DNA from: Siphonodentalium dalli | Lineage: Eukaryota > Mollusca > Scaphopoda > Gadilida > Siphonodentaliidae | Assembly (NCBI GenBank): GCA_032622095.1 | Contig: CP136067.1 | Coordinates: 120,005,030-120,069,029 of the forward strand | Reading direction: 5' to 3' | DNA length: 64,000 bases | Part shown: one piece after another, positions 13,131 to 58,060 of the stretch | Layout: each line of letters opens with the position of its first letter | Position numbering within the stretch: the stretch's first letter is position 1 | The notes under the pieces: generated by a model | What the model saw: the letters and a program-made list of their open reading frames with translations, nothing else | What the model was told of the DNA's origin: nothing | Databases searched by the model: none | Made by a program: the position numbers and the translations under genes

Positions 13131-13189
13131 TAACCAAAGAGCGTAGGTGTAGGTAATGCAAATGACCTGTAATCGACGGGCATGGGATG

Positions 13190-13758
13190 CTGAACATGTT
13201 TCTGAACTGTTGAACTGACAAGGCGGTCGGTCAAATTGTGTCCCCTCACATTATTTGGTTATGGCGCATCAATTACAAGTCATTTGCATAACCGACATCG
13301 GACTCTCTTCGTTAGCAATAAGTTAAACTGCTTTTCCGGACTATCTGCTGATCTGTTCCCGATGAAGTGCTGAACGGGTTTTTTTTAACTGTTGAACTGG
13401 CATGGTGGTCGATCAAATTGTGTTCCCCCATTATATTTGGTCATTATTGACCGATAACATGCCATTTACACAACCTATATCCGACTACTTTCGTTGAAAA
13501 TCAGTTAAACTGCGTTCGGGACCATCTGCTGAACTGTGCCCAATAAAGTGCTGAACGGGGTTTTGAACTGTTGAACTGGAATGTTGGTCGATTAAATGGC
13601 TTCCCCTCACTGTATTTGGTTGTGACCCATTGATTACAAGTCATTTGCATATCCGATAGTTGACTATCTTCGTTACAAATCGGTTAAACTGCGTTATGGG
13701 ACTTCCGTATTTGCTGATCTGTTCCCAAATGAAGTGCTGAACGGGTTTTTGAACTGTT
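13190..13758. repeat. ~178-bp satellite, left block (three full units plus a partial)
   Basis: Units start near 13242, 13423 and 13603. Each runs TATTTGGTYATGRCCCAT, ATTACAAGTCATTTGCAT, TCTTCGTTA...AGTTAAACTGCG, then CTGATCTGTTCCC, GAAGTGCTGAACGGG and GAACTGTTGAACTGG. The same satellite resumes at 18066, on the other side of the glycosyltransferase segment. Confidence 0.85.
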
Positions 13759-13971
13759 GAACTAGTCGGAGGGAATTATTCTCAAAGAAAATATGACACG
13801 TGAATTTGGGGATATCGAGTTCGCCAATTTTGCTGGAAATTCCCGCTCTAAATATAGAAAGCAAAGACTGATACCCAGCCGGTGACAAAGTCAGAAAGGA
13901 GGTGTGCCTGGTAGATATTAGCCATATCCACTGACCACCACGTTGAGATCACGTGACATATCTTTCGAAAC

Positions 13972-14936
13972 TCAACGGCTGATCATTGTACCTTCGTTTT
14001 GTTCACTGAAAGTGACATTTCTTGGTGCATGCAGCCTGTTCACACATATATTTCCCAAGTGAAACCAGCCACCTTTGTATGGCTGTAATTTGACACTCAT
14101 GTTATATTTCAGAGAACTTTTAACGTTCATCCCGTATATAATTTGTTGGCCGGTACTCATCAAATTGTTCTCGAGGAATATGTAGAACATTCGTTAGTAT
14201 TGATTCACGAAATTCAACATGACCTCTTTTCTGGCAAGGGCTGCCCCAGTAGCAACATAAAAGTGGTTTTCAGAAACAATTTGCGACAAAGATAAACTTC
14301 TGTTCACTCCATTTACATCAGTAAATGCCACACGCGTTGCATCGAGGTCGTCTGGAACACGCAACGCAAACAATCCGCTTCCACTAGTCATTGACAGATC
14401 TCGAAAATATCCGATGTCAAGCCACATTACGTGATCTGTTGCTACGAGACCGTTTTCTATCGTCTTCTTCAGCAGATGCCATCGAGTACTTACTACGCAT
14501 GCGTAATCCGGATTCACTGTGTTTTGTAAAATTTTCGGATAACCGGGTCTTTTGAATATCTTCTCAATCTCGGGCCTGTGTTGAAATGGCCATACTTCTC
14601 TTCTCAGTTTTTGTCAAGGAGTATCACATGAACATATTCGTTATCTCCGGTGAAATGTTTAAACATAGTATAGTAGTCTATATCGTCTAAATATGCCACC
14701 AAAGGAGTCCTTATACCCCGGTATGATCGCATCCATACTTTATAATCGTTAGTATCGCGAACAATCGAAGTAACTCCCTTTGAAAAATTTCCAATGTTGA
14801 AATACGCCGTTACCATGGTAATTGTGCTATTGATCCCATATAGCAACTGGACTTCCGGTGCTGTTCTGATGTTGGGTTTATCTGGTTCAGTCATATATCT
14901 GTGATACTGGAAAGAGAATAACAGGGCTGCATGCAC
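13972..14936 (-). pseudogene. HtrL/YibB-like glycosyltransferase exon, pseudogene copy
   Basis: The same protein as the copy at 46902-47831 (minus), including TMVTAYFNIGNF, WMRSYRGIRTPLVAY, WLDIGYFRD and GGWFHLGNICVNRL. Three kinds of damage separate it from that copy. A 1-base loss near 14607-14612 shifts the frame just after the block ending VILLDKN. A stop codon near 14191 sits where the other copy has lysine (QYKRM). The last few residues also differ. The exon is preceded on its own strand by pyrimidine-rich acceptors (TTCCAG and CACAG) near 14893-14905. It lies between two blocks of satellite. Probably not translated into a full product. Confidence 0.8.
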
Positions 14937-15479
14937 ATGTATATGGAAACAGAGTCAAACCTCGGGAAATGTATGGGGTTTATCGTAAATCTACTAGCCG
15001 ATATATTATAGGCCATGTCACACAGTTATTAGTTTAATATTTAATTTTGTTCAAGAAAGACCACAGTAAGTAAATTTCACTGACACATCACAACACTGCA
15101 CACATATAAACCACTGAACCAAAGATCCAATTGCCATAACGTCCAGTTGTCATAGCAACGTCCTGATATGTGTTGAATTGATTTGACTTTAAACACATTT
15201 CATTTGTATATTAAACTTGATAAAAAATGGATTGGGGACAAGTTACAGAAACTTACTGAGCCTCTCCCGGTGCAAGTTAAGGATGTACTACATCTTCATC
15301 TATATTTGCGAATGTCTGTCTGTCTGTCTGCGTTCTATATAAATGCACAGGGGACCATCTAGATGACACCAAAGGGGCCCACTATGGTTATCTTTTTACG
15401 AGAAAGATAATGGCGGGGGTAAAACATTTCTAAAGTGACGCCGTTGTTGTCAGGGGCAGAAAATGGTGAGGGGTAGAAA

Positions 15480-15900
15480 ATAATTTTGTCGTCGTTTGCC
15501 ACTAAATTTATATATAATCATCCCCATGATATGATGAATCTAACGTTTGCCACTAAACTTATATATAATCATTCCCATGATATGATGAATCAAACAGTGT
15601 GGTTTAAATATGTCAAAAGTGGCGCCGTTCGAGTCAGGGATGCACGGAAGGGAAGAGGGGCACCAAAATTAATAAAACTATTTTTAGCGCCGATAATAAT
15701 TTTGTCGTCGTTTGCCACTAAACTTATATATAATCATCCCCATGATATGATGAATCAAATAGTGTGGTTTAAATATGTCAAAAGTGGCGCCGTTCGAGTC
15801 AGGGATGCACGGAAGGGAAGAGGGGCATCAAAATTGATGAAACTATTTTTAGCGCCGATTTCCACCAAATTAATATACATTCTTCTCCATGATACAAAAA
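15480..15900. repeat. Tandem units inside the Helitron
   Basis: GTCGTCGTTTGCCACTAAA begins copies near 15488 and 15704 (period about 216 bp), with a further partial at 15545. Each continues through ATATAATCATYCCCATGAT and GTGGCGCCGTTCGAGTC to GGGAAGAGGGGCA. More diverged relatives follow to about 16970. Confidence 0.8.
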
Positions 15901-16500
15901 ATATAATTGTGTGATTTAAGGATGCAATATTGGTATCGTTTGGAACGAGGAATCTAATCGTGTGATTTAAATACGCCATATTGGTGCTGTTTGGGTGAGA
16001 GATGGGGTGGGTGGGCACTAAATTTGATCCAAATGTGTTTAGTCGCCAATTAGCACCAAACTTATAAATAATCATCTCCAAGATATCAGGAGTCTAATTG
16101 TGTGTTTTAAGGATGTCACAACTAGTGCCATTTGAGTCAGGGGTGCATAGAGGGTGAGAGGGACACAAAACATGATAAACAATATGCTTAGCTCGGTGAT
16201 ACGAGGAAGCTAATCGTGTGGTTGAGATATGCCGTTTAGATGAGATATGAGGCCCTAAATTTGATACGAATTTGTATACTCGCCAATTTTCACCAATTAT
16301 ATATTCATCTCCATAACGAGTCTAAGTGTGTGGTTTAATGACGACAAAATTGGCACCGCTTGAGTCTGAAAAAGGGACGGGAGGGTCACAAAAACTGATA
16401 TACAATATGTTTAGTGCCAATTACCATCAAATCCATACAGGTTCTTCTCAAATGATACGAGGAATTAAATCGTGTGTGTTAAAAACGCAACATGTGGTGC

Positions 16501-16740
16501 CTAGATATATTTGCGAATAACTGTCTGTCTGTGTGTGTTCTAAATATAACTTCACGGGGTACAATCGAGATGGCACCAAGGCGGTCTAACAGGGGTAACT
16601 TTTTACGAGGAAGATAATGGTGCGGGATAAAATGTTCTAAAGTGACGCTGTTTGTGTCAGAGCCAGAAAAGGGAGGGGCAAACAAAAATGATGAAATAGT
16701 TTTGTCGCCGATTTCCACCAAATGTATACATAAACACCTC
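16501..16740 (+). repeat. Internal second copy of the Helitron 5' region
   Basis: TATATTTGCGAATAACTGTC, then AGATGGCACCAA, AACTTTTTACGAGGAAGATA and TAAAGTGACGCTGTT repeat the sequence just inside the Helitron start at 15300-15470. It may mark an older nested element or an internal duplication. Confidence 0.7.
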
Positions 16741-17268
16741 CGCGATTCGAGTCAGGGGTGCATGTGGGAGCTTCAATAATTGATCTAATAAACTATTGTT
16801 AGCGCAGATTTCCACCGAATTGATATATTATTCTTCTCCATGATACGAGGAATATAATCGTGTGATTTAAAGACGCCACATTGGTATATATTTAGCACTA
16901 ATTTCCACCAAATTCATACACGCTCTTCTCTAATGATACGATGAATTAAATCACATTTGTTGTCGTTTGGGTCATTTCACAATCTTGACAAATGGTGACC
17001 CAATTAAGTCATTTGAACAAGTATATCTTCTCAACTGTCATATTTATATGGGGAGATAGCATATGAGATAGCAAAACAGATACATTAAAAGTATATTTAT
17101 CATTCTATTTAAGAGATACCTATATTCTTGCTAACATAGACCTCGAACTGTCAGAAGATTACATATAAGAATGGATCATGTATATATTACAACACAATTG
17201 AGTCTGTTCCATTCAATATAACGTCCACAAAATTTGTCAAGAGATATGGATATGTATCGAAGGCCTGT

Positions 17269-17493
17269 TCAAAAATAGTGCTCACAGTGTTCCTTAAAAT
17301 ATTGTTTCTTTTGAGAAAAAAAAACGCAGTCAGTAGCACATGACTTTTCGGGATCATCCAATACTGACATCTGACAAGGGTAGATCTGTCCGATACAGCG
17401 GATTTCTTTCATTTTTAGAACAGACTCATCGCCTAACAACTCAAAATTTCGCTGTGTCGGGCACATGTACCTGATATGCTTGCATAGCAACAT
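17269..17493 (-). CDS. Cysteine-rich open frame in the Helitron, possible captured exon
   Basis: Seventy-four codons with mixed, protein-like composition and eight cysteines, including RYMCPTQRNFELLG, CIGQIYPC and CATDCVFFSQKK. On its strand, the sequence just before the frame reads TATTCTCACGATAAAAG, which could be a splice acceptor. The spacing of cysteines suggests a C-terminal segment of a secreted or extracellular protein, but I do not recognise the family. It lies about 500 bp from the 3' end of a Helitron, a transposon class known to pick up host exons. Capture is inferred; chance is not excluded. Confidence 0.3.
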   Translation of the reverse strand: MLLCKHIRYMCPTQRNFELLGDESVLKMKEIRCIGQIYPCQMSVLDDPEKSCATDCVFFSQKKQYFKEHCEHYF

Positions 17494-18065
17494 TTCTTTT
17501 ATCGTGAGAATATTTAGCCAATATATAGCAACATAAACAGAGGAGCACCTGGCAATTTCTTTACATCTGCATCTTCATGGAGATATGAAAGACAGCTTCC
17601 TCAAGATTTTAGTCTAACCCACTAGATCGATTGATATATCTCTATATGTAAAACCTAATGCCGTCTTTTATTTTTGCAAACGAATATGATGTTCATGTTT
17701 CATGTTATAACTTCGGAATTATATACAGTTGTAAATAAATAAATACTTCTTTATTGATGGAACGAATTAGTCGCGATAAACAAAATGACAATCGGCATGG
17801 TGAGCGCTACTTATATTCCATGTGTAAAATCATGTTTTGTGATGCTATTTGAATATACAATTTATGAGAATACGTGTAACACTTTGAGCAAGAGTATTCT
17901 TTATTCCCACCAAATATCCACATAATGCAGAGGGTTTCACATCACTTTAACCTGGGCAACGCCGGGTAACCATGCTAGTAACATGATATTTACATAGTCC
18001 GTCTGTGTTCCACTAAATTGTGGTCGGTGATTGGCCAACTGCCAATTGGAACACCCGTTTTGTGT

Positions 18066-18636
18066 CCCCTCACAGTATTTGGTTATGGCCCATAAATTAC
18101 AAGTTATTTGCATCGGACTCTCTTCGGTAACAATCAGCTAAACTTCGTTTCCGGACTATCTGCTGATCTGTTCCCGACGATGTTCTGAACGTGTTTTTTA
18201 ACTGTTGAACTGGCATGGTGGTCGGTCAAATTGTGTTCCCTCATTTTATTTGGTCATTGTCGACCGATAACATGCCATATACACAACCTATATCCGACTA
18301 CCTTCGTTAAAAATAAGTTAAACTGCGTTCGGGATATCTGCTGAACTGTGGCCAATGAAGTGCTGAACGGGGTTTTGAACTGAGATGAAGGTCAATACAA
18401 TGGTAATCACTCACTTGTTATGGCCCATTGATTACAAGTCATTTGCATATTCGATAGTCGAATATCTGCGTTAAAAGTCAGTTAAACTGCATTCGGGTCA
18501 ATTTCGGGTCTAACGTATCTGCTGATCTGTTCCCAGTGAAGTGCTGAACGGGTTTTTGAACTGTTAAACTGCGATGGCGATCGGTCAAATGGTGTTCCGT
18601 TACTGTATTTGGTTATGGCACATCCATTACAAGTTC
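18066..18636. repeat. ~178-bp satellite, right block
   Basis: Units start near 18066, 18242 and 18411, with a partial near 18594. They have the same internal order as the left block at 13190-13758, including GCTGATCTGTTCCC and AACTGTTGAACTGGCATGG. The block starts immediately where the duplicated gene segment ends. Confidence 0.85.
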
Positions 18637-19139
18637 AAAACCTAGATAGATTAGATAATTTATTCGATAAAGCATGTACATATACAATAAGATTTATAAA
18701 ATACAATGCACATGCAGAATCCGGGCGGTGGTGTGATCTAATGGCCGTCTTCCCAACATCGCCCAGGCAAAAAAAAATTAACGTCATGTTTTATCTTTGT
18801 TCAGCAGATCTCATCCACACATATATATTAGAATAAATGAGGGCTCATGCATCTGCTTCTATAATTTTTATTGTATACTTCATCATACAGCAGATTACAG
18901 ATTTAACTTCTCGGCAGTATGTTAAGATAATGTAATACTTTGTAATAATGTAATAGTAATATACATAAAAAATGTACATAGAATGTGACATAGAATGTGA
19001 CAAAAGCGATATTTATATATAACACTTTGTTACTTATTGGTTCGTACAATATCGATTTTTGCAAGTGACTTTGCTTTTATAGTTTTCAATATAACTATCT
19101 ACTATAAGTCGTTTAAATGTAGATCTTGGGATAGAGGTT

Positions 19140-19675: not shown

Positions 19676-20045
19676 TTATAGGTTAAATACATTGCTCATC
19701 CAATTTAAGTTTTTACGAACAAGGTAGGTCCGGTCAGAATTGACTTTAAACACCATATATTTTGATTTAGATGCATTTAGAACGAGTTTGTTTGCAGCAC
19801 AGCATAGGAATATGTTGTGTAATTCAATATTTGCACCATGAAAAAGTTTCTCAATGACAGGACTGCACGCATATGCAGTTGTGTCATCTGCGAAAGACAG
19901 CATGTTGAATTTTGTGGAGTTTGGCATGTCATTTACATATATTAAAAATAGTATCGGTCTGAGTATAGAGCCTTGAGGCACTCCAGTGGAAACAGCTCTA
20001 TAATCAGATTTTTTCCCAGAGTGATCTACATATTGCTTTATATAT
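19676..20045 (-). pseudogene. LINE 2 RT palm domain (FADD)
   Basis: The frame contains PQGSILRPILFLIYVNDMPN followed by MLSFADDTTAYACS. FADD is an accepted variant of the YxDD catalytic pair, and both aspartates are kept. KLVLNASKSKYMVF is the usual block after it. The preceding codons toward 20045 read through HSGKKSDYRAVSTG. The reading frame ends soon after the thumb starts. Confidence 0.85.
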
Positions 20046-20065
20046 GTTAGATAGCTTCTGAAAAA

Positions 20066-20335
20066 TTGTTAACTACTCCCCGAATCCCACAGTGTTCCAT
20101 TGTTACTACTCCCCGGATCCCACAGTGTTCCATTGTTACTACCCGAATCCCACAGTGTTCCATTGTTACTACTTCCCGAATCCCACAGTGTTCCATTGTT
20201 ACTACTTCCAGAATCCCACAGTGTTCCATTGTTACTACTCCCCGAATCCCACAGTGTTCCATTGTTACCACTCCCCGAATTTCACAGTGTTCCATTGTTA
20301 ACTACTCCCCGAATCCCACAGTGTTCCATTGTTTT
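20066..20335. repeat. 33-bp minisatellite inside the RT coding sequence
   Basis: Eight tandem units (one of 30 bp) encode MEHCGIRGVVT on the minus strand. The first unit follows the RT block DHAILLKT, and the last runs on into VNNFSEAI, so a single original copy of this segment in the RT has been expanded in place. All unit lengths are multiples of three. The plus strand reads CCCGAATCCCACAGTGTTCC in each unit. Confidence 0.9.
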
Positions 20336-20743
20336 CAATAAGATAGCATGATCTATAGTATCAAAGGCTTTCGAAAAATCTAGAAATAATGCCAGTGTTG
20401 AATCTTTAGTTTTTTTATCGTTCATTTTGCCGATGTGATTTAGAAGTTTCGGGAGCGGGTGGATCGTGGAGTGATGCTTTCTAAAGCCAAATTGCATTGG
20501 GTTTAATAAGTTCTTCTCTAAAAAAAAATCACTCAGTCTTCTACAAGTAGCCTTTTCTAATATTTTTGAAAATACGGGAAGGATGCTTATGGGTCGGTAG
20601 TTACGGACATAATTTTTATCTCCAGTTTTGTGTATTGGGACTACACAGGCAGTTTTCGTTGCTTCAGGAAATTTACCACTCTCATATGAAAGATTTACAA
20701 TATGCGATATTGGATGAGACATGTATTGACATGTCTCTTTCAA
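20336..20743 (-). pseudogene. LINE 2 RT fingers and palm start
   Basis: The frame carries VVPIHKTGDKNYVRNYRPIS, LPVFSKILEK, QFGFRKHHSTI and LALFLDFSKAFDTIDH in order. These are RT blocks 1-3 of non-LTR elements, including the first catalytic aspartate (FLDFSKAFD). The frame then runs directly into the 33-bp minisatellite. Confidence 0.88.
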
Positions 20744-21003
20744 AAGCTCTGTAGTAAGACCAAAGTTATCAACCCTTTTTTATTTATGAAACTGTTGGTA
20801 ATATGAAGAATTTCATTTGGACTTGATGGGTAGAGGAAAAAACTATCCTTTTTAGGTTCCTTTAAATATTCTATGTAGGATTTTGTTATGGGTACCTCAT
20901 TAAGTTTGTTAAGTGTATCTTGAGCTACTTCAGATAAGTATATATTGAAAGCGTTTGCTATTGATTATGGATCATTGTAGTCTACACTATTCGTAGTTAT
21001 TCT

Positions 21004-21291
21004 TCATGGTTTCTCAGAATTATTATGTTTTCTGATAATTGCACTGTTCATAATTTGCCAAGTTTTCTTCATATCTTTTTTGTTCGCATCTAGAGTGGTT
21101 TCATAATACAATCGTTTACTAACTCGCAAAGTGGAGTTAAATATTTTACAGTATTTTTTTTTATATTTTTCTTGGTTTCCTGTTGTCGGATGTTTGAATA
21201 TTTTTCGCAATAGTTTGTTTTTATTTAAGGATGATGTAATTAGGCCATTTGTCATCCATGGATTTCGCTTTTGTTTCTTGTTTTGTTGCAC
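21004..21291 (-). pseudogene. LINE 2 linker between endonuclease and RT
   Basis: NPWMTNGLITSSLNKNKLLR and the lysine-rich stretch that follows are typical of the region before the RT in CR1/Jockey-like LINE proteins (usually KPWMTxGI). Upstream and downstream frames differ, so it is a frame-broken part of one protein. Confidence 0.8.
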
Positions 21292-21396
21292 CTTAATAAG
21301 TTTTAGAGGGTATGCAGTCTCATAAGCTGTAGATATAATATTCTGAAATTTATTAAAAGCATCATTTGGACAAGATGAGTCAAGAACAGAAGAAAA

Positions 21397-22200
21397 TTAA
21401 CATGAGGAAAGTAAAAATTTAAATCGTTCTTTCTTGTGAGTGTTTAAGCAACGTTTTTTGACAAATTTACTTTCAGTAGACGTCATTTTTTTAGTTAGGC
21501 AATAGAATACACCAAAATGATCACTTACATCGGTAACAACAACACCTGATATGAAAGGAGATGGATTGTTTGAGTATATGTGATCTATTAGTGACGATGA
21601 ATAGTCCGTGACGCGAGTTGCCTTTGAAATGACTTGAACAAAACCTTGAGTGGATGCGTTATCAATAAAAGTTTCAGTTTTTGGGTGAACATGATAATTT
21701 AAGTAATTAATATTGAAGTCACCCATTATTTAAGATTATTTCCCTTCTTTATTTATAGCTTTAGTTATTGTATTGAAGTGTGTCATGAATAAGTATAAAT
21801 CAGCCTTTGGTCGCGTGTTGGGGCGTTATATTACACCAATGATATATGGTTCACTATTTTGGGGCTGAACTTCTATAAAGGCTGATTCAAATACATGTGG
21901 TATGAATAGGGTTAGATCATCTATTAGTTTATGAGTCAGGTTATTATTAACAAAGTGCCCAACTCCTCCATGGCAGTCATCATCAACTGATCTGGTTTTA
22001 GTGTACAGGGTAAAGCCATAAAGATCAAATTACGATTCCTCCGGTTGCCTACAGAACTCGCTTATTCCAATTATATCGAGGGTATTGGATTTTGCATGTA
22101 GAGAGTCGATAAGTTCATTAAATGAATCCCAATGAGCTCCAATGCCCTGACAGTTCAAATGAAATAGCTCGAGTGACAGCCCTGTTTGTTTGTTTAACTG
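21397..22200 (-). pseudogene. LINE 2 AP-like endonuclease
   Basis: The C-terminal half (21726-21397) carries MGDFNINYLNY, SSSLIDHIYSNN and VVTDVSDHFGVF. These are the conserved GDFN, D-x-hydrophobic and SDH catalytic blocks of APE-type endonucleases. The N-terminal half, in other frames between about 22200 and 21740, reads LELFHLNCQGIGAHW and VFESAFIEVQP. Stops near 21735 and 21830 and a frame change interrupt it. Confidence 0.85.
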
Positions 22201-27470: not shown

Positions 27471-28275
27471 CCATATAAAAATGTACCTGGGTAAATCCAC
27501 CCAGGTTTTTTGGGCCGAAACCCAGGTAAAAATCTATCTACCAAGACATCCACCAACCATCAAGACCCCGCGAAACCTGGGTTTTACCATGATTTACCCA
27601 CCTGAAACTGGATAAAAACCCTGGTATGGGTAAACCTGGGTGTAATTACCCAGGTGACCACACCCAGGTGTACCCTACCTGGGTGTTTCCCACCCAGGTC
27701 TACCCTGGTGTTTCCTACCTGGGTGTTTCCCCACCCAGGTGTACCATGGTGTTATTTACCCAGGTGTACCCTGGTGTTTCCTACCTGGGTGTTTCCCATC
27801 CAGGTTACCTTGGTGTTATTCACCCAGGTGTTTCCCACCCAGGTGTACCTTGGTGTTATTCACCCAGGTGTACCCTGGTGTTTCCTACCTGGGTGTTTCC
27901 CACCCAGGTGTACCTTGGTGTTATTCACCCAGGTGTACCCTGGTGTTTCCTACCTGGGTGTTCCCCACCCAGGTGTACCTTGATGTTTCCAACCCAGGTA
28001 TACCTTGGTGTTTTTTTTACGCCGGTGTACCTTGGTGTTTTCTTACCCAGGTGGATTTCCCATTGAGATGCACCTGGGTACACCCAGGTAAGGAAACACC
28101 AAGGTACACCTGGGCAGGAAAACACCAAGGTACACCTGGGTAAGAAAACACCAAGGTACACCTGGGTAAGAAAACACCAAGGTACACCTGGGTAAGAAAA
28201 CACCAAGGTACACATGGGTAGGAAACACCAAGGAACACCTGGGTGAATAACACCAAGGTACACCTGGGTGGGGAT
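27471..28275. repeat. CACCCAGGTGTACC minisatellite with inverted halves
   Basis: From about 27620 to 28060 the units read CACCCAGGTGTACCTTGGTG, with lengths near 22-26 bp and a TTTCCTACCTGGGTG variant. From about 28065 to 28270 they read as the reverse complement (CAAGGTACACCTGGGTAAG, period 26). The two halves could fold on each other. The left border CCCATATAAAAATGTACCTG also occurs, inverted, at 41718-41746. Confidence 0.85.
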
Positions 28276-28279
28276 ACCA

Positions 28280-29560
28280 AAGTGAAATGATGAGGATGAC
28301 AATGAAGTAGATTTTGATGGGATGCAGGGGTATTGTTATCAATGGAGTTGTTTTAGTATAATAGAACATTAAGGAAACTGATTGTGCAGCAATACAAGTT
28401 TATTCAAGGACAACAAACTAACTAAAGATAAAATACATGTATAGAAACACATGTAATATATAAATATATAAACTCATTAAACTGCATGGGTTAAAACTTA
28501 CTGACAACAAGAGTTGGGTTAAAATTTTGATTAAAAAACACTTGCAAAGTCCCTCTTCATACATGTATATGGTATGTTAGGCAAGTTACATGTACATGTA
28601 GTTGCAATGTATACTAGTACCGGTACATGACATACCGGTGGACACAAAAATCATTATTTTAGTTCCAATGTCATTTACCAGAATACATGTACATGTTGTA
28701 CCTTGCAACTACATCTACAGTGAGGTAGTTTTGTCTCATTTAAACTTTCTAAATGGGTTTCTCCCTTTGAATGACATAAACTAATGTGAGTACACATGAG
28801 CTGTGGTGTGAAATACACACCAAAAAATTATTTCTTAGTCTGAGGACATGTTTCCCGTCATTATCTTACTGCTTACAAATATAGATTTGTAATAATGTGC
28901 TGTAATGCTCCAGAAATAGTCATATTTTGTCCTGGTTCATAAGAACATATTATTTCTTAGTGTTAAAAGGACATGTTGTCTGATATTATTTGACTCATAA
29001 ACCCCCAAATGTACATGTAAACAGAACATTCGGGAAAGAGACACACCATCTTTATCCTGTTTTATATCAGTACTAAGTAGCAATATTGATCAGATAGCAA
29101 AATATGCTATAAATAGATTTCAGATGGTAGAGATTAAACAATCACATTAATTGCACCAACTCGAAACAGTTAACATACCCTGTAGAATACAGACTATGAT
29201 CAAGGAGGGTGTCACACACACCCCCACCCCGCTTTGGTATGTGATATTCAAGCCATTTTCAGGTGGTATGCTATATACATGTACATACCCAATGTTATCT
29301 GGTACTAGGATTTCACACGGCAATATAACCGGCATTCACGATTCAGCAAAAAGGCTAGTATGCAGATATAATAGCAGAAAATTATACAAATTTTGAGTAT
29401 TTTCCAGCTTAAACAGACCCAAGTGATATATTTTTATCTAATTCAGTCTAATGGCTCTTGATATGTTGATGTTTTGGATACTATTTCAGCAAATGTGAGA
29501 AAAGGTGGCTTCTTTGGGGCATCAGCTTGTCTGAAAAATATATCAAGGTCCCCTAAATCC
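28280..29560. other. No gene recognised; ACATGTACATGT motifs
   Basis: AT-rich sequence in which the self-complementary ACATGTACATG recurs (near 28562, 28588, 28688 and 29276). No coding signal. Confidence 0.4.
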
Positions 29561-30286: not shown

Positions 30287-31227
30287 TTAAAGGTGCTCAA
30301 TCAGATTCGATGGTCCCCATATAATTAGATTCCAACAACAACATTTTTTTTAGAAATGCTGCTTCAGTAATATCAGAATCGATTAATTGCCCAAAAATAA
30401 TGCTAACCACTGTCAACTACATGTATAGTATAAAATCGCCTGATACGTTATATTTATCAACATGCTGTTCGACGAAGTTTGACCTTATTATCAACACAAA
30501 GCCTCTTCATTTTAGAGTTATCCATCTTCATCCGCAATTTGGTCTGAGACCGCGGCTCGTCAAATTTTTCTGGGCCACTATTAAGTATCGATGGTGATAA
30601 ATATTAAAATTTCTAAAATTGATATCTAATAACTCTGAGCTTTGATACATGTAGGTGGGTCCCTCGACTTGATTAAAATATTTTTACCCCCCCCCCCGAT
30701 TCCATATACATGTATATGTAAATAGCAAATGAGGGGCACTTAATCGGATTATGCATCTTTAAACTGTATTTGAATTTAAAGATGCATAATCTGATTAAGG
30801 GCCCCCTGAATTAATGCTCGCACATTACTCTTTATTTGGACTTGGGGGGTAAAAGATATTTGGTACGAGTCGAGGAACCCACCACCTATCAAAGCTCAGA
30901 GTTATTAGATATCAATTTTTGAAATATACTATTTTTCACGATCAAGAATTAATAGTGGCCCACGGTCTCGGACCAAATTTCAGATGAAGATGGATAACTC
31001 TAAAATCAAGAGGCTTTCTGTTGATAATAAGGCCAAATTTTGTAGAACAACATGTTGATAAATAACATATGTCAGGCAATTGTATACTTTAGTTGACAGT
31101 GGTTAGCATTATTTTAGGGCAATTAATCAATTCTGATAACGTAACTGAAGCAGCCTTTCTAAATACAAATGTATGATGTTGGAATCTGATTATATGGGTA
31201 TCATCGAACCGGATTGAGTACCTTTAA
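30287..31227. mobile_element. 941-bp palindromic (head-to-head) MITE
   Basis: The arms 30287-30763 and 30775-31227 are inverted copies separated by 11 bp. The outer ends read TTAAAGGTGCTCAATC and its complement GATTGAGTACCTTTAA. The inner ends read TTAATCGGATTATGCATC and its complement. Single-arm relatives at 58754-59078 and 12665-12790 show that one arm is the basic element, so this is two arms joined tail to tail. Arms share GACAGTGGTTAGCATTATTT-type blocks. Not coding. Confidence 0.88.
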
Positions 31228-39594: not shown

Positions 39595-41420
39595 TAATAA
39601 GGTAACTACTCGTCAATGATGCTTGAATACATAAATGATTAATAAGGTAACAACTACCCGTCAATGATCGACGTCTTAATATAGAAAGGTTTTATAAGGT
39701 AACTAACTACACGGCAATGATACTTATTATAGAAGGTTAATAACTTCTTGTCAATGATGCTTTAATATAGAAAGGGTTAATAAGGTAACTACCCGTCAAT
39801 AATGCTTTAGTGTAGAAATTGTTACTAAGGTAACTACATGTCAATGATGCTTTAATAAAGAAAGGGTTAATAAGATAAAGTTCTACACGTCAATGATGCT
39901 TAAATATAGAAAGGGCTAATAGGGTAACTACACGTCAATGATGTTTTAATATAAAAAGGGTTAATATGGTAATTACACGCCAAGGGTGCTTTAATATAGA
40001 AAGGGTTAATATGGTAACTACCGTCCATGATGCTTTAATATATAACTGGCTACTATGATAACTACATGTCAATGATGCTTTATTGTAGAAAGGGTTAATA
40101 ATGTAACTAATCACCAATGATACTCATTATAAAAAGGGTTAATAAGGCAACTGCCTGTCAATTATTGCTTCAACGTAGAAAGGGTTAATAAGCTAATTAC
40201 ACGCCAATGGTGCTTTAATATAGAAAGGGTTAATATGGTAACTATCAGTCAATGATGCTTTAATATAGAAAGTGTTATAATATGGTAACTGCACGTCAAT
40301 TATGCTTTGATACAAAAATGGTTAATAAAGTAATTACCCGCCAATGGCGCTTTAATATAGAAATGGTTTATAATGTAACTACTCACCAATGATACTTAGT
40401 ATAGAAAGGGTTGTTTAATGTAACTACCTGTCAATTAATGCTTTAATATAGAAAAGGTTAATAAGGTAACTACACGCCAATGATACTTAGTATAGAAAGG
40501 GTTGGTAAGGTAACTACACGACAATGATACTTTAGTATATAGAGGGTTAATTAGGCAACTACCCGTCAACGATGCTTTAATATAGAAAGGGTTAACATGG
40601 TAACTACACGTCAATGATATTTTAATAAAGAAAGGGCTAATAAGGTAACTACATGTCAATGCTGCTTTAATACAGAAATGGTTAATAAGGTAACTTCACG
40701 TCAATGATGCTTTAATATAGAAAGGGTTAATACTGTAACTACTCACCAATGATACTTAGTATAGAACGGGTTAATAAGATAACTACCCAGCAATAATGAT
40801 GCTTTAATATAGAGAGGGTTATAATAAGGTAACTACACGTCAATGATGCTTTAATACATAAATGGTTAATAAGGTAACTACCCGCCAATGGCGCTTTAAT
40901 ATAGAAAGGGTTAATAATGCAACTACTCACCAATGATACTTAGTATAGAAAGGGTTAATAAGGTAACTACCTGTCAATTAATGCTTTAATATAGAAAGGG
41001 TTAATAAGGTAACTACACGCCAACGGTACTTAGTATAGAAAGGGTTAATAAGGTAACTATATACGACAATGATACTTTGATATATACAGAGTTAAGGAGC
41101 CAACTACCCGTCAATGATGCTATACTATAGAAAGGGTTAACATTGTAACTACACATCAATGATATTTTAATATAGAAAGGGTTAATAAGGTAACTACGCG
41201 TCAATGATGCTTTAATAAAGAAAGGGTTAATAAGGTAACTTCACATCAATGGTGCTTTAATATAGAAAGGGTTAATAATGTAACTACTCACCAATGTTAC
41301 TTAGTATAGAAAGGATTAATAAGGTAACTACCTGTCAATTAATGATTTAATATAGAATGGTTAATAAGGTAACTACACGCCAATGGTGCTGTAATATAGA
41401 AAGGGTTAATAAGGTGACTT
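39595..41420. repeat. 45-bp tandem array, about 40 copies
   Basis: The unit runs GGGTTAATAAGGTAACTACA, CGTCAATGATGC, TTTAATATAGAAA. Two neighbouring unit starts at 39961 and 40006 give the 45-bp period. A variant with CTCACCAATGATACTTAGT recurs about every few units, suggesting a higher-order repeat. Minus-strand frames reading INPFYIKASLTCSY and the like are by-products, since 45 is a multiple of three. Confidence 0.9.
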
Positions 41421-41439: not shown

Positions 41440-41746
41440 TAACAAAATACCACAGGTGTATATATCCGGGTGAACACTGTAGTAAATACCTGGGCGAAAC
41501 CCTGGTGTAAATACCTGGGTGTAAATACCTGGTGTAAATACCTGGGTGTAAATCCGTAAAAACCCGGGTAAACTGGGGTTTATACCTAACATATATCGAA
41601 AACACCTGGGTAAATCTATATAAATCCCTGATTTACCTGGGTGTAACCTGGGTGTGACCTGGGTGGAACCAGGGTAAAACCTATATGTACCGGGGTATAC
41701 CTAGGTAAACACCAAGATTTACCCAGGTACATTTTTATATGGGTCA
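41440..41746. repeat. ACCTGGGTGTAAAT repeat block
   Basis: Units of about 14-20 bp around ACCTGGGTGTAAATACC. The right border reads GATTTACCCAGGTACATT then TTTATATGGG, the complement of the left border of the 27471-28275 array. The two loci therefore belong to one family. Confidence 0.75.
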
Positions 41747-42517: not shown

Positions 42518-44351
42518 CTAAGCACATAAAATCTTAGGTATTTCTCTGATAAGTCTTACAATTGGCTTTAATTTATCAGTGTTCAAATTAAATAACTCAT
42601 TTAGTTTGAACACACTTGGTCTTTCATAGAAGTACTTATCCATACATTTCATTCGGAGTGTTTTGAGTTTTTTGCACACTAAAATAGCATGATATTCATC
42701 ACCTATACCTTCATTACAGGCTTTACAAATTCTCTTTGAGAGATCCAATTCCTCCCAATCACCAGTTTCTATAGGGAGTCTATGGTTTCTGGTTCTAATT
42801 CTTGCTATGACCTTTGCATCTGATTGGTTGAAGTATTTGAGATATGGTTCCATTGCATAATTGTGTTTAACTGCTCTATAAAATATGTATTTATTAGAAG
42901 TATCAAGTTTACCCCTCCATTCTTGCATGTGCATATCTCTTAGTCTATCCCTTGTTGCATTTTTGAACCATTTACTTCTACATAAATTTTGGTCACTCCA
43001 AATAAATGACATTCCAGTTTCATTTAATATTTTTCTGATGCCATTCACCCATTTAAAGGCACGCTTAGTTTTTTTTACTACAAATCATTGAATCATATAG
43101 TATTTTTGTCAATTTCCAGCCTTCGCCTTCAATTATTCTGGTCCAGTAACATAACATTTTGTGTTTAATTATAGTTGAAACTGGGATTATGCCCAGTTCA
43201 CCATATACCATAGCAGTCGGTGTTGTAGTTTTCAAGCCCAAGATGAATTTAAAAAACCATAACTCTGTTGTCTCAATCATAGCATTAGAACCATATCCCC
43301 ATACTTCACATCCATACGTGAGGGTTGGTAAGATTGCTTTATTATATATATCAATTATAACATCAAAGGTTAGTTGTGATTTTCTCATTTTGTGAATGAG
43401 TGAGAACATAGCCTTTTTGGCCGCAGCACACCTTTTTTTCTTTTCATCAATAAATAATTGGTTCTCATTGCTAAATGTCACCCCAAGATACTTATAACTT
43501 TTGGATAATTCTATAGGCTCATTTCCAATATAGAAGATCTCATCTTCATATTTCCCTTGGCCAAATACAACTATTTTTGTTTTAGAGCAGTTAATGCTGA
43601 GTTTCCAGTCTAGACAGTATTGATGATAAGAATCTAGGATTTCTTCTAATCCCTCAGCTGTGTCAGCCATGAGTATGGTATCATCAGCATATAAAAGTGA
43701 AAACAGTTTAACAAATCTGTGCATTGCTTTACCACTCAAGGCTGACAAAGCTAGGGGATTTTGACAGTTTTGGCCAAGGTATGACTCCAGATCATTCAGA
43801 TATAGGGAAAAAAGTATTGGGGAGAGATTTTCGCCTTGCCTCACGCCAATTGGACATTTAAAAAGGGGGGAAACATTTTCATCAACTGAAACACATGATT
43901 TTATATCCTGATACATACTTTGTATGACCTTTAATAATTTTCCATCAATACCTGATGAGATAAGTTTATACCAAAGACCATTCCTCCAGACACTGTCAAA
44001 AGCCTTAGACAGGTCTATGAAGGCACAATATAAACTACCATTAATAGAATTGGTTAACTCAATCATCGAATTCAATGTATGTATGTGGTCAATGGTGGAA
44101 TAGTTTGGCCGAAATCCAGCTTGATTTACAGAGAGGATGCCATTTATTTCTAGGAATGAGTATATTCTCTTACTGAGTATACTAGTAAACAATTTGGCCA
44201 AACAGCTGACAAGTGTAATTTGTCTATAGTTATCAGGGGAAGAAAATTTCCCAGATTTATAAATTGGTTTAATAAGTCCAATACTCCACTCTTTGGGTAT
44301 ATGTCCAGTTTTGAGAATCAGATTAAAATATTTAAGATAAACTATTTTCAT
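42518..44351 (-). pseudogene. LINE 3: RT and C-terminal zinc region, one frameshift
   Basis: The 428-codon frame (44351-43065) holds a complete RT: NYRQITLVSCLAKLFTSIL, QAGFRPNYSTIDHI, CAFIDLSKAFDSVWR, GVRQGENLSPILFSLYLND and LLYADDTILMAD with both catalytic aspartates, then SYKYLGVTFS and TYGCEVWGYG. The C-terminal part (43048-42518) carries RIRTRNHRLPIETGDW and a CxxC...H...C knuckle (RICKACNEG...HAILVCKK). The two are separated only by an extra or missing base in an A8 run (43069-43076 on the plus strand). No endonuclease was seen upstream, so the insertion is probably 5'-truncated. Best preserved RT in the window. Confidence 0.93.
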
Positions 44352-44524
44352 TTTAGGGTAGGAACCTCTGATATACCCTGATTAGGAGATTATATAGCGA
44401 CAACAGGTCGCGTGACCGGACAATGCATTGACAAGTAGCGATAATAAACAGACAGACCACGCCTCCTATCCTTGCAATTGGACAAGTGTGGCCCACAGGT
44501 AACGCAATCGATCAAATCAATGTC

Positions 44525-46237: not shown

Positions 46238-46901
46238 TTAATCGTGTCAAGTGAAGATATCATATGTTGTTGCAATTGAAGGATCAAGATCTTCAGGTAA
46301 CTTCTTCTAACATCGTTGGCAGATTCAGATTTGTTTTCATCGGCCGGCATGTTGAAAGAATGTCAAGGTCACGTGTCGATTTCAAACTATCTCCGATTTG
46401 GTTATCAATTTACTATTATTCAGGAGCCTTACGCCTAGAAGAATGTTACGATGCACAATAGTCAAAACTGTAACATGAAGAAGAGAATTTACGAAATCAC
46501 CTCCACTGTTAGGCATTTAAGCGAGAATTCCTCCCAAAAATTTACGATCGACTGTCGTGTAACATTACCGGAAGTGATATGACTATCTTCGTTACAAATC
46601 GGTTAAACAGCGTTCGGGACTACCGTAATATGTTCGCAATGAGGTGGTGTGAGGATTTTTGAACTGTTGAACTAGTCGGAGGGAATTTTTTTCTCAAAGC
46701 AAATATGACATGTGAATTTGGGGGGATCGAGTTCGCCAATTTTGCTGGAAATACCCGCGTTAAATATAGAAAGCACAGACTGATACCCAGCCGTTGACAA
46801 AGTCACAAAGGAAGTGTGCCTGGTAGAGATTAGCCATATCCACTGACCACCAAGTTGAGATCATGTGACAATTGCTATATGTTTCGAAGCATAACGGGTG
46901 A

Positions 46902-47831
46902 TCATTGCACCTTCGTTTTGTTCATGGAGCTGAAAGTGACATTTCTTGGTGCATGCAGCCTGTTCACACATATATTTCCCAAGTGAAACCAGCCACCCTT
47001 GTATGGCTGTAATTTGACACTCATGTTATATTTCAGAGAACTTTTAACGTTCATCCCGTAAATAATTTGTTGACCGGTACTCATCAAATTGTTCTCGATG
47101 AATATATAGAACATTCGTTTGTATTGTTTCACGAAATTCAACATGACCTCTTTTCTGGCAAGGGCTGCCCCAGAAGCAACATAAACGTGGTTTCCAGAAA
47201 CAATTTTCGACAAAGATAAATCTGTGTTCACTCCATGTAGAGCACTAAATGCCACACGCGTTGAATCGAGGTCGTCTGGAACACGCAACGCAAACAATCC
47301 GATTCCACTAGTCATTGACGGATCTCGAAAATATCCGATGTCAAGCCACATCACGTGATCTGTTGCTACGAGACCATTTTCTATCGTCTGCTGCAACAGA
47401 TGCCATCGAGCACTTACTGCGCATGCGTAATCCGGTTTCACTGTGTTTGGTAAATGTTTCGGATAACCGGGTCTTTTGAATATCTTTTGAATCTCGGGCC
47501 TGTGTTGAAATGGCCATACTTCTCTTCTCGGTGTTTTGTCAAAGAGTATCACATGAACATATTCGTTATCTCTGGTGAAATTTTTAAACATATTATAGTA
47601 GTTTATATCGTCGAAATATGCCACCAAAGGAGTCCTTATACCCCGGTATGATCGCATCCATACTTTATAATCGTTCGTCTTGCGAATAATCGAAGTATAT
47701 CCCTTTGGAAAATTTCCAATGTTGAAATACGCCGTTACCATGGTAATTGTGCGATTGATCCCATATAGCAACTGGACTTCCGGTGCTGTTCTGATGTTGG
47801 GGTTAACTAGTTGAGTCATATATCTGTGAAA
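46902..47831 (-). CDS. HtrL/YibB-like glycosyltransferase-type protein, last exon
   Basis: An uninterrupted frame of about 305 codons ending at a stop at 46902. It opens after candidate splice acceptors on its strand (TTCCAG ending at 47832 or TTTCACAG ending at 47824), so it is probably a terminal exon rather than a whole gene. Blocks in order: TMVTAYFNIGNFPKG (about residue 30), VWMRSYRGIRTPLVAYFDD (about 70), VMWLDIGYFRDPSM (about 165), ASGAALARKEVM (about 220) and GWFHLGNICVNRL (about 280). These fit the HtrL/YibB family, which has a glycosyltransferase-A-like look; the exact substrate is not known to me. The lack of stops compared with the broken copy at 13972-14936 suggests this one is, or recently was, functional. 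Upstream exons were not found. Confidence 0.7.
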   Translation of the reverse strand, partial: FHRYMTQLVNPNIRTAPEVQLLYGINRTITMVTAYFNIGNFPKGYTSIIRKTNDYKVWMRSYRGIRTPLVAYFDDINYYNMFKNFTRDNEYVHVILFDKTPRREVWPFQHRPEIQKIFKRPGYPKHLPNTVKPDYACAVSARWHLLQQTIENGLVATDHVMWLDIGYFRDPSMTSGIGLFALRVPDDLDSTRVAFSALHGVNTDLSLSKIVSGNHVYVASGAALARKEVMLNFVKQYKRMFYIFIENNLMSTGQQIIYGMNVKSSLKYNMSVKLQPYKGGWFHLGNICVNRLHAPRNVTFSSMNKTKVQ

Positions 47832-48209
47832 CTGGAACGAGAATAACAGGGCTGCATGTACATGTATATGGAAACAGAGTCAAACCTCGGGAAATTTATG
47901 GCGTTTATCGTAAATCTACTAGCCGATAGGCCATGTCACAAATTTATTAGTTTATTATTTCATTTTGTTCAAGAAAGACCACAGTAAGTAAATTTCACCG
48001 ACACATCACAACACTGCACACATATAAACCACTGAACCACATATCCAATTTCCATAACGTCCAGTTGTCATAGCAACGTCCTGCTATGTGTTGAATCGAT
48101 TTGACTTGAAACATATTTTATTTGTATAGTAAACATGATAGAAAGGGGATTGGGGACAAGTTACATAAACTTACTTAGCCTCTACCGATGCAAGTTAAGG
48201 ATGTACTAC

Positions 48210-48211
48210 AT
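48210..48211 (+). other. Empty target site of the Helitron at 15293-17978
   Basis: GGATGTACTACA|TAACA is uninterrupted here, whereas the duplicate copy has 2686 bp between the A and the T. Confidence 0.92.
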
Positions 48212-48754
48212 AACAAAATATTTACATATATAGTCCATCTGTGTTCCACTAAATCGTGGTCGGTGATTGGCCAACTGCCAATTGGGACACCCGTTTCGTA
48301 TCCCAGTAATACACATACCCCCAATAACACAGAGACCGTAACACCAACCCGATGTCACAAATTGTTGATATAACCTGACCCATTCACTAAAATCGGTGAG
48401 CACACTAATTGGGCGTGCTTTTCTAAATTCAGCCGAATTGTACCTGAAGCCAGTTATTTATATCGATCACGTTATCGTTTCGAAGTGCTTGGAAATCCTA
48501 TAATGGGCTGAGCTAATGTGCTGTTGGCTAGTCTCAAATTCTCCGCAGATTTTGTGCAAATACGTAAGAATACACTCAGATTTGTTATTGGAATAAACCA
48601 TCAAAAAGCTATATAAATATAAGAAATACATGTAGTGGATGTGTGTGTTATTTGGAGATATGATGCTGTGGTCGTTGAGGGCACATTTAGTGTAAATCGC
48701 GAAGCCATAGCGCCTTATCCCCCAATAACGCCCACACGCACTAAATTCATTTCT

Positions 48755-48985: not shown

Positions 48986-49228
48986 CCGAGTCGTATAACC
49001 ACACTGGCAAAATTATAGATTACCACTTACTTTAACATCTACATTATTTTATAATAACTTTTCTCAAAAGATGGATAGGAGTAACAACCCAAATGTTGCT
49101 TTTCAGATTTAAATTAAATTATCACGAACGTCACAATCATGATTTCAAAACCGTGAATTAAACATGGACACGTTTGCATTATGACAAGCAATATGTTTAT
49201 CGTATGTAGATCCCATTTTAAAATAAAT

Positions 49229-49460
49229 CATCACTAATATAACAAACACCCATATTGATAGACTTACTAAATCATAACTAATATAAGAAACACCCATATT
49301 GGTAGACTTACTGAAGCATCACTAATATAAGAAACACCCATATTGATAGACTTACTAAATCATCACTAATTTAAGAAACACCCATATTGATAGACTTACT
49401 AAATCATCACTAATATAAGAAACACCCATATTGATAGACTTACTAAGATCTACTAAAGCA
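49229..49460. repeat. 44-bp tandem repeat, five copies
   Basis: ATCACTAATATAAGAAACAC then CCATATTGATAGACTTACTAA repeated five times with few changes. The array lies about 500 bp before the DIRS-type gag region. Confidence 0.9.
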
Positions 49461-49952
49461 TCAACTTTCCTTTAAAGTGATATGAAACACTCAGAGAGTG
49501 TGATCAAATAGAAATGGAGTATACTCTTGTTCAAAGTAGTTATGTTTATAAATAGTATATAAAAGTTTACAATATACGCCGTCATTCTTATATATTCATT
49601 AAATTCAGTGACACTCGATGGCGAAATAATTTTCGTTAGTTTATCGACGACAGTAGCGTCCCGAATCGAGATGTAAATATTTACAATTGAGCGTAGTTCA
49701 TACGATGTTTTCTATGGCGTGGTATGGTCGATTTGCTTGAGATTTTCGGCGATGTTGGTAGAAGGCTACATTCCTCTAGTTGTCATAGCGCCTGAATACT
49801 AATTTATTAGTTTCACGCACCCGAACAAGTCCATAATATGTCTTTAAAATCTTTGTATATCCACAAATCAATTTATCGTTCCATATTAAATTAAGAAAGA
49901 TACAAATAAATTTATCATTCCATATAAATTAAGAAAATATCGCATTCAAATC

Positions 49953-56569: not shown

Positions 56570-58060
56570 ATTGTGACGTTGTGATGAAAATACAGATAAA
56601 ACTGAAGATTTTGTATAAAATTTGTCTATAATGGCATAATAAAGCGGTATATTTACATTAAATCATATTTCGCGATGAAATCTATCGATGACATGCAATT
56701 TGCATTGACTGAGGGTGGTAACACGATAGCTATTCCTCTTGGTACTCCCCAACGTTTAACGTTCTTAAAATAGCCTCTAAAGCTGCCCGAATGTGATAAG
56801 TAATTATAAATAAAAGTGATATTAATTGATAGCAGCTTTTTCCGGACAGGTAGAGGTGCCCTTGATTCATATGTATTATTTTATACCCCGGAATTTATAT
56901 AAAACTTGCTGGGACCCAGTGGACTTGGATCAGTCTTACTACAAAATCCTTACGAATTTCATACATGCATGGGAGTTTCCCCATATAATTTTCTCTGCTT
57001 TGTTGCACCATACACCAGACCATTAAGCCAAGAATGTTCACGGTCCCCTCAGTAATCAGTATTCTCTGAATCACTTATATTTTATAGGATGGACTAAATG
57101 ACATCGCATATAATTGCTTAACACCCCATTAACGCCCGATCGTTGTCCTATCCCCTCCATGAGTATAAACATTATAAATACACCCAACTATATATTTGCC
57201 TTGTCGGCTCGGTCGGTGTCTTTCTAACCGTTCTTCGTTTATCTGGGAACGGGACAAATCTACTAGTGTCAGCACTTGTGTCCCAATCCCAATTGTTGTA
57301 TGTATATATATATATGTATATCTGTAATTATCCTCCATTACTGAAGATTGTATATATGAACACAATAGTATATACAGAACATAATACACACGGTCATATA
57401 CATGTATCAACAAATCAAAGTATTTACATATATATACAATTATCGAGTTGGGTCTGCGCTCTTACCAGCAGGTACCGCCCAAACCAAACCAAAACAGTTC
57501 AGCATGACTACATGCGTTGCAATTCTTCAAACGCAATTGCCAGCGTCATATATATGGGTACGCACACATAAGGGCACAACCGCAACTTTGTTGGTGTATT
57601 CGCGTACGCACGTGCATCTGGGCGCGCAGGACAATCAGTCACGACACCCTGCCATCTCCCGATGCACAGAATAATGACGAACGACTTGCATTGTCATTCT
57701 ACTGGCCACTGAATCCAACAGAATTGGGCGCGCGCATCCACATATACACGGCCGCACGTATACACGCAACTCACACCATATATGTTTGTATATTGAATGC
57801 CTTTATATGGCATGTGCGATTACTATATACATGTAATATAAACCATGTGGTTGTCATAATTGGAGACATAAAGATAATATGAGGTTTCTCTTTCATATAT
57901 ATTGATGGACGTCACGACAAGGTTCCACATATAAAAAGTGAAGTATAGAGAGAGATAGATAATTATACATCGAAATATTACTTCGATTACAGTAGTTTAA
58001 TGTATATCTATAAAGTAAAAATAAAGGGTGCGAGTCGATATATAGTGTATGAATAACGAG
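56570..58060. other. No gene recognised
   Basis: AT-rich, with a short TA run near 57300. Open frames at 57129-57882 overlap on both strands and have no recognisable domain; they are probably chance. Confidence 0.45.

Follow-up and report, generated by a model that had tools for sequence, protein, structure and literature searches.

The window, the whole 64,000-nucleotide stretch of DNA analysed here, contains two copies of a gene-bearing host segment: copy A, interrupted by a 2686-bp insert, and copy B, which provides the corresponding empty site (Table 1). Copy B carries an open 325-codon frame matching PF09612 HtrL_YibB with an E value of 4.7e-14. In copy A, a frameshift and an in-frame stop have broken this frame into two pieces (14194-14613 and 14604-14954, minus strand), the first of which still matches HtrL_YibB (E 6.3e-7). 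The insertion point corresponds to 48210/48211 of copy B, on the 5′ side of the frame and 0.33 kb past its outer limit. We also observed that an HtrL_YibB-like frame is found here in an apparently eukaryotic window, although PF09612 is described as bacterial.

Copy A lies inside a 182-bp satellite: the units on its left stop at 13754, and the satellite starts again at 18060, at position 31 of the model. On either side of copy A (13188-13763 and 18060-18647), the units point the same way and are almost in phase, so that the gene segment looks as though it had been placed within an array. Copy B retains only about half a satellite unit, at its left end (46573-46663), which suggests that it was derived from a satellite-embedded, A-like source then devoid of the insert. 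We also asked whether the duplicated unit might itself be a transposon; the edges of copy B share 4-base words only, and no target duplication was seen. The sequence-only reading had treated the two copies as segmental duplicates: the duplication is real, but it covers only about 1.7 kb, bears a gene and stands beside a satellite, and is not a long segmental duplication.

Table 1. Positions of the insert, its parts and the two host copies in the window
Feature	Positions	Strand	Basis
Left host flank, copy A; broken HtrL_YibB-like frame (minus)	13661-15292		BLASTN, alignment, Pfam
Putative non-autonomous Helitron, whole insert, TC...CTAG between A and T	15293-17978	+	Filled/empty comparison with 48210/48211
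Outer 5′ terminus (TCTTCATCTATATTTGCGAATGTCTGTCTG...)	15293-15400	+	Indel edge; copy from 16506 on
Degenerate ~165-bp tandem repeats behind outer head	15408-16501	+	nhmmer, 10 of 14 pieces
Inner second copy of the 5′ end, 74-77% like 15301-15530	16506-16746	+	Self-BLAST, alignment, Smith-Waterman
Shorter run of ~165-bp repeats behind inner head, overlapping the head copy	16604-16951	+	nhmmer, 4 of 14 pieces
3′ body, about 1 kb, unrepeated inside the insert	16960-17949	+	
Imperfect palindrome ACCTGG-GCAACG-CCGGGT, one G.T pair, putative rolling-circle terminator	17950-17967	+	Fold
3′ terminal CTAG	17975-17978	+	Indel edge
Right host flank, copy A	17979-18068		BLASTN, alignment
Copy B; empty site 48210/48211; open HtrL_YibB-like frame 46902-47879 (minus)	46580-48304		

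The limits of the insert were obtained by comparison of the two copies. BLASTN paired 13661-15293 with 46580-48211 at 91.3% (gaps included) and 17991-18068 with 48227-48304 at 92.3%. When the flanks of copy A were joined and aligned with copy B, the alignment ran ungapped across the junction (...GATGTACTACA/TAACA..., the stroke marking the junction): all 20 left bases displayed and the first five right bases were identical in copy B. The two copies thus differ by a single large segment, and the 2686-bp difference that the sequence-only reading had placed at 15293-17978 proved exact to the base. The only alternative placement is a shift of one base to the right, the first base of the insert and the next flank base both being T. 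We chose the conventional placement, which gives TC...CTAG between A and T. The empty site reads ACTACA^TAACA and no target-site duplication was seen at the insert. Substitution divergence between copies A and B amounts to 6.9% in the left flank (112 of 1613 sites, K2P 0.073, 8 gaps) and 8.0% in the right flank (7 of 88 sites, 1 gap).

Paralogous empty sites are described as routine proof of element ends (PMC4067079, PMC7492417). Ends are otherwise difficult to define when an element has neither inverted repeats nor target duplications; here, the filled and the empty site lie in the same window and fix both ends to the base. With these ends known, the element family and its partner could be sought by a simple search of the source genome. 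Separately, 33 bp of A+T-rich sequence at 57402-57434 resemble the empty-site junction at 85% (BLAST E 7e-4), which we took as chance.

The same comparison could be read in the opposite direction, the element predating the duplication and copy B having lost the segment by precise deletion. One base of microhomology (T) is available at the edges, and two copies alone give no direction. However, such a deletion needs cuts exactly at TC and CTAG. A^TC is found at 1.55% of the positions of the window and CTAG^T at 0.064%, and the probability of meeting both edge motifs at independent random breakpoints is about 2e-5 (two strands). Moreover, clean excision of Helitrons is rare. Circles suggestive of replicative transposition have been described (PMC4778049). 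We regard a precise deletion as very unlikely. Insertion after the duplication, as proposed from the letters of the sequence, is the simplest order of events, although two copies alone give no proof of it.

Canonical Helitrons are described as starting with 5′ TC and ending with 3′ CTRR, with a palindrome of 16 to 20 nt about 11 bp from the 3′ end, and as inserting between A and T without duplication (PMC4067079). Similarly, the description of insect Hel-2 gives TC, CTAG, flanking A/T and a 3′ stem-loop (PMC4344730). The insert (37.2% G+C) has TC at its left indel edge (15293) and CTAG, a form of CTRR, at its right indel edge (17978), an 18-nt palindrome located 11 nt inside the 3′ end, and an A/T insertion without target-site duplication as judged at the empty site. 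All canonical marks readable from one copy are thus present, and the TC start, the CTAG end after a GC hairpin and the A/T insertion claimed earlier all fall at the edges of the indel, in support of the Helitron reading. We conclude, with a probability of about 0.9, that this segment of 2686 bp belongs to the non-autonomous canonical Helitrons.

The energy of the hairpin contributes little to this assignment. It folds at -9.6 kcal/mol over 40 nt (RNA parameters), and 18 of the 198 CTAG sites on both strands, the insert end counted, fold equally low under the same settings, which rules out energy as a strong signal. When we scanned for exact GC stems ahead of CTAG, three other sites were returned but not the insert end, whose stem holds a G.T pair. 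Hence the weight rests on the position of the palindrome and the indel edge: the insert end is distinguished by where its palindrome lies and by motifs that fall on the indel edges, not by energy.

We also searched for further copies of both ends. A search of the window with 28 bases of the 3′ end, allowing up to 9 mismatches, detected no second copy. With 30 bases of the 5′ end (up to 10 mismatches) or 24 bases (up to 6), the search returned an inner head, considered below; the only other matches, three in number (39081, 11736 on the minus strand, and 19408), stood at the mismatch limit and were taken as chance. The end patterns gave 0 exact matches in viral_contigs and genome_contigs, collections of viruses and prokaryotes that are uninformative for a eukaryote, and the core letters of the hairpin gave 0 matches in the literature text searched, a result confined to that text.

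The insert apparently has no genes of its own. Its longest stop-free frame measures 145 aa and falls largely within repeats. Pfam gave no match to Rep or helicase in 12 of the 42 window frames of at least 110 aa, nor in 10 of the 17 frames of at least 50 aa that overlap the insert. Based on these scanned frames, the insert was read as non-autonomous. The search for a captured gene covered the same 10 of 17 insert-overlapping frames and produced only two Pfam rows, DUF1003 (E 0.15) and Toxin_11 (E 0.087), both below curated cut-offs and attributed to chance. For a 101-aa frame at 17269-17574 (minus strand), a PDB search with E values up to 1 returned nothing. Across the window, Rfam at the gathering threshold and ARAGORN each returned 0 matches.

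Similar elements are described in a mollusc, the Pacific oyster, where 751 intact Helitrons carry TC, CTAG and a 16-20 bp palindrome, with A/T insertion in 86%; in the account given there, they are without Rep and helicase features and no autonomous element was detected (PMC7992393). The insert resembles them in its TC/CTAG ends, near-3′ palindrome, A^T site and in the absence of any Rep or helicase match in the frames scanned, but differs, as far as description allows comparison, in its greater length (2686 bp, where the oyster elements average 1092 with an SD of 558) and in its doubled 5′ head (PMC7992393). With Helraiser/Helibat of bats, as portrayed in PMC4778049, it shares 5′ TC, 3′ CTAG and a palindrome 11 nt from the end, the palindrome being 19 bp there and 18 nt and imperfect here; this likeness is one of description, and unlike these elements the insert has no transposase gene in the frames scanned.

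Internal satellite-like tandem repeats and the lack of target duplication are features that the insert has in common with Helentrons and HINEs (PMC4067079, PMC7492417). The insert could accordingly be a Helentron/HINE-type or other tandem-repeat-bearing transposon rather than a canonical Helitron: such internal repeats are reported in oyster HINEs (PMC7492417), and subterminal inverted repeats occur in 257 of the 751 oyster Helitrons, so that mixed forms exist (PMC7992393). Nevertheless, the insert is bounded by TC and CTAG and its target is A^T instead of the TT or T-rich target of that class. Nor did comparison of the first 100 with the last 120 bp reveal any subterminal inverted repeat of 10-15 bp at up to 1 mismatch, a range that includes the 12-15 bp typical of Helentrons and HINEs; the best was 9 bp with one mismatch (class features as described in PMC4067079 and PMC7492417). 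We consider this assignment very unlikely and retain that of a canonical Helitron.

The element is thus of an ordinary kind and unusually well delimited; its notable feature is a two-headed structure, which the sequence-only reading had missed. The 5′ end (15301-15530) recurs in tandem at 16506-16746, the two heads having a single 3′ end in common. By self-BLAST, positions 9-238 of the insert match 1214-1454 at 73.9% over 241 bp, and the terminal 110 bp aligned to the inner head with a Smith-Waterman score of 58, whereas none of 500 base-order shuffles scored above 14. At the inner head, nothing corresponds to the first eight bases of the insert, so the 5′ terminus rests on this one insertion. 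Each head is followed by degenerate repeats of about 165 bp, for which nhmmer listed 14 pieces at E up to 1 (weakest and last, E 0.087); TRF called a 165-bp unit at 15544-15859. Divergence between the heads (K2P 0.27 over 230 sites) exceeds that between the host copies (0.073). Assuming similar rates for repeats and host flanks, the doubling is thus probably older than the insertion.

We considered that the two heads might stem from two separate insertions, one Helitron landing within or next to a second, with loss of the 3′ end of the outer element. Helitrons landing next to others are described as yielding new 3′ ends (PMC4778049 section 12), and a CTAG stands at 16501-16504, one base ahead of the alignable inner head. 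No clear short GC hairpin was seen beside this CTAG; the 50 nt that end with it form a long imperfect stem of -10.5 kcal/mol. Against two insertions at this site, host sequence starts again immediately behind the one 3′ end, with nothing left of an outer element. We thus find this scenario unlikely, and nesting, if any, would most simply have taken place at a donor site before the present insertion. Since the host resumes directly after the single 3′ end, either the whole arrived as one piece or the second part exactly replaced the outer tail.

The 3′ body also resembles another place in the window, a likeness that the sequence-only reading had likewise missed. The 215 bp at 17736-17950 match 49683-49472 on the minus strand when the insert is compared by BLAST with the remaining window (62%, E 7e-8). 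A Smith-Waterman alignment of the 3′ part with the 49472-49683 region, a target picked after the BLAST match, scored 34, whereas none of 200 dinucleotide shuffles exceeded 22. The resemblance does not extend beyond the first hairpin base; the other region continues into a 44-bp tandem array (49224-49446) and not into a terminator. Either this region is an ancient relative in which the terminator was lost or was never present, or the Helitron may have taken up the segment. Changes of terminator are a known event: 39 of 395 bat copies are reported to have new 3′ ends (PMC4778049 section 12), and changed 3′ ends are accordingly known in Helraiser/Helibat (PMC4778049).

Given that the 215 bp before the hairpin recur in the window with similarity ending at the hairpin, the 3′ terminator may be swappable. 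We tentatively propose, as a possibility short of an even chance, a two-headed Helitron lineage with long-diverged tandem 5′ heads and one terminator, copied and inserted as a unit, in which the 3′ terminator can be exchanged. A doubled head with one tail would record how rolling-circle elements build composite units.

A simple model of the insertion would proceed as follows. A Rep/helicase presumably encoded elsewhere would have nicked at the 5′ TC, and one strand would have been peeled off or copied by rolling circle until the hairpin and CTAG ended it. This strand would then have been joined into the flank upstream of the HtrL_YibB-like gene copy, at the A/T site, probably after copy A and its sister at 46580-48304 had parted. 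The two-headed element may have moved in one step, as a unit.

Other features of the window were noted. Reverse transcriptase frames, which we take to be non-LTR-like, lie at 42518-44381 and 19676-21729 (both minus strand), the second in pieces, with Pfam matches to RVT_1 in 43065-44381 and 20282-20779; together with the repeats, the RVT_1 frames suggest a eukaryotic origin of the window. At 39595-41419, a 45-bp unit is repeated about 40 times in an array for which TRF also called a period of 408 bp. Microsatellite arrays of the CCTGGGTG type are found at 27593-28399 and 41482-41682, the former being present in both orientations (inverted match at 27834-28272, BLASTN). Finally, 30287-31227 forms an imperfect inverted repeat of its own, with 78.9% identity over 989 aligned columns, and is possibly a foldback element.
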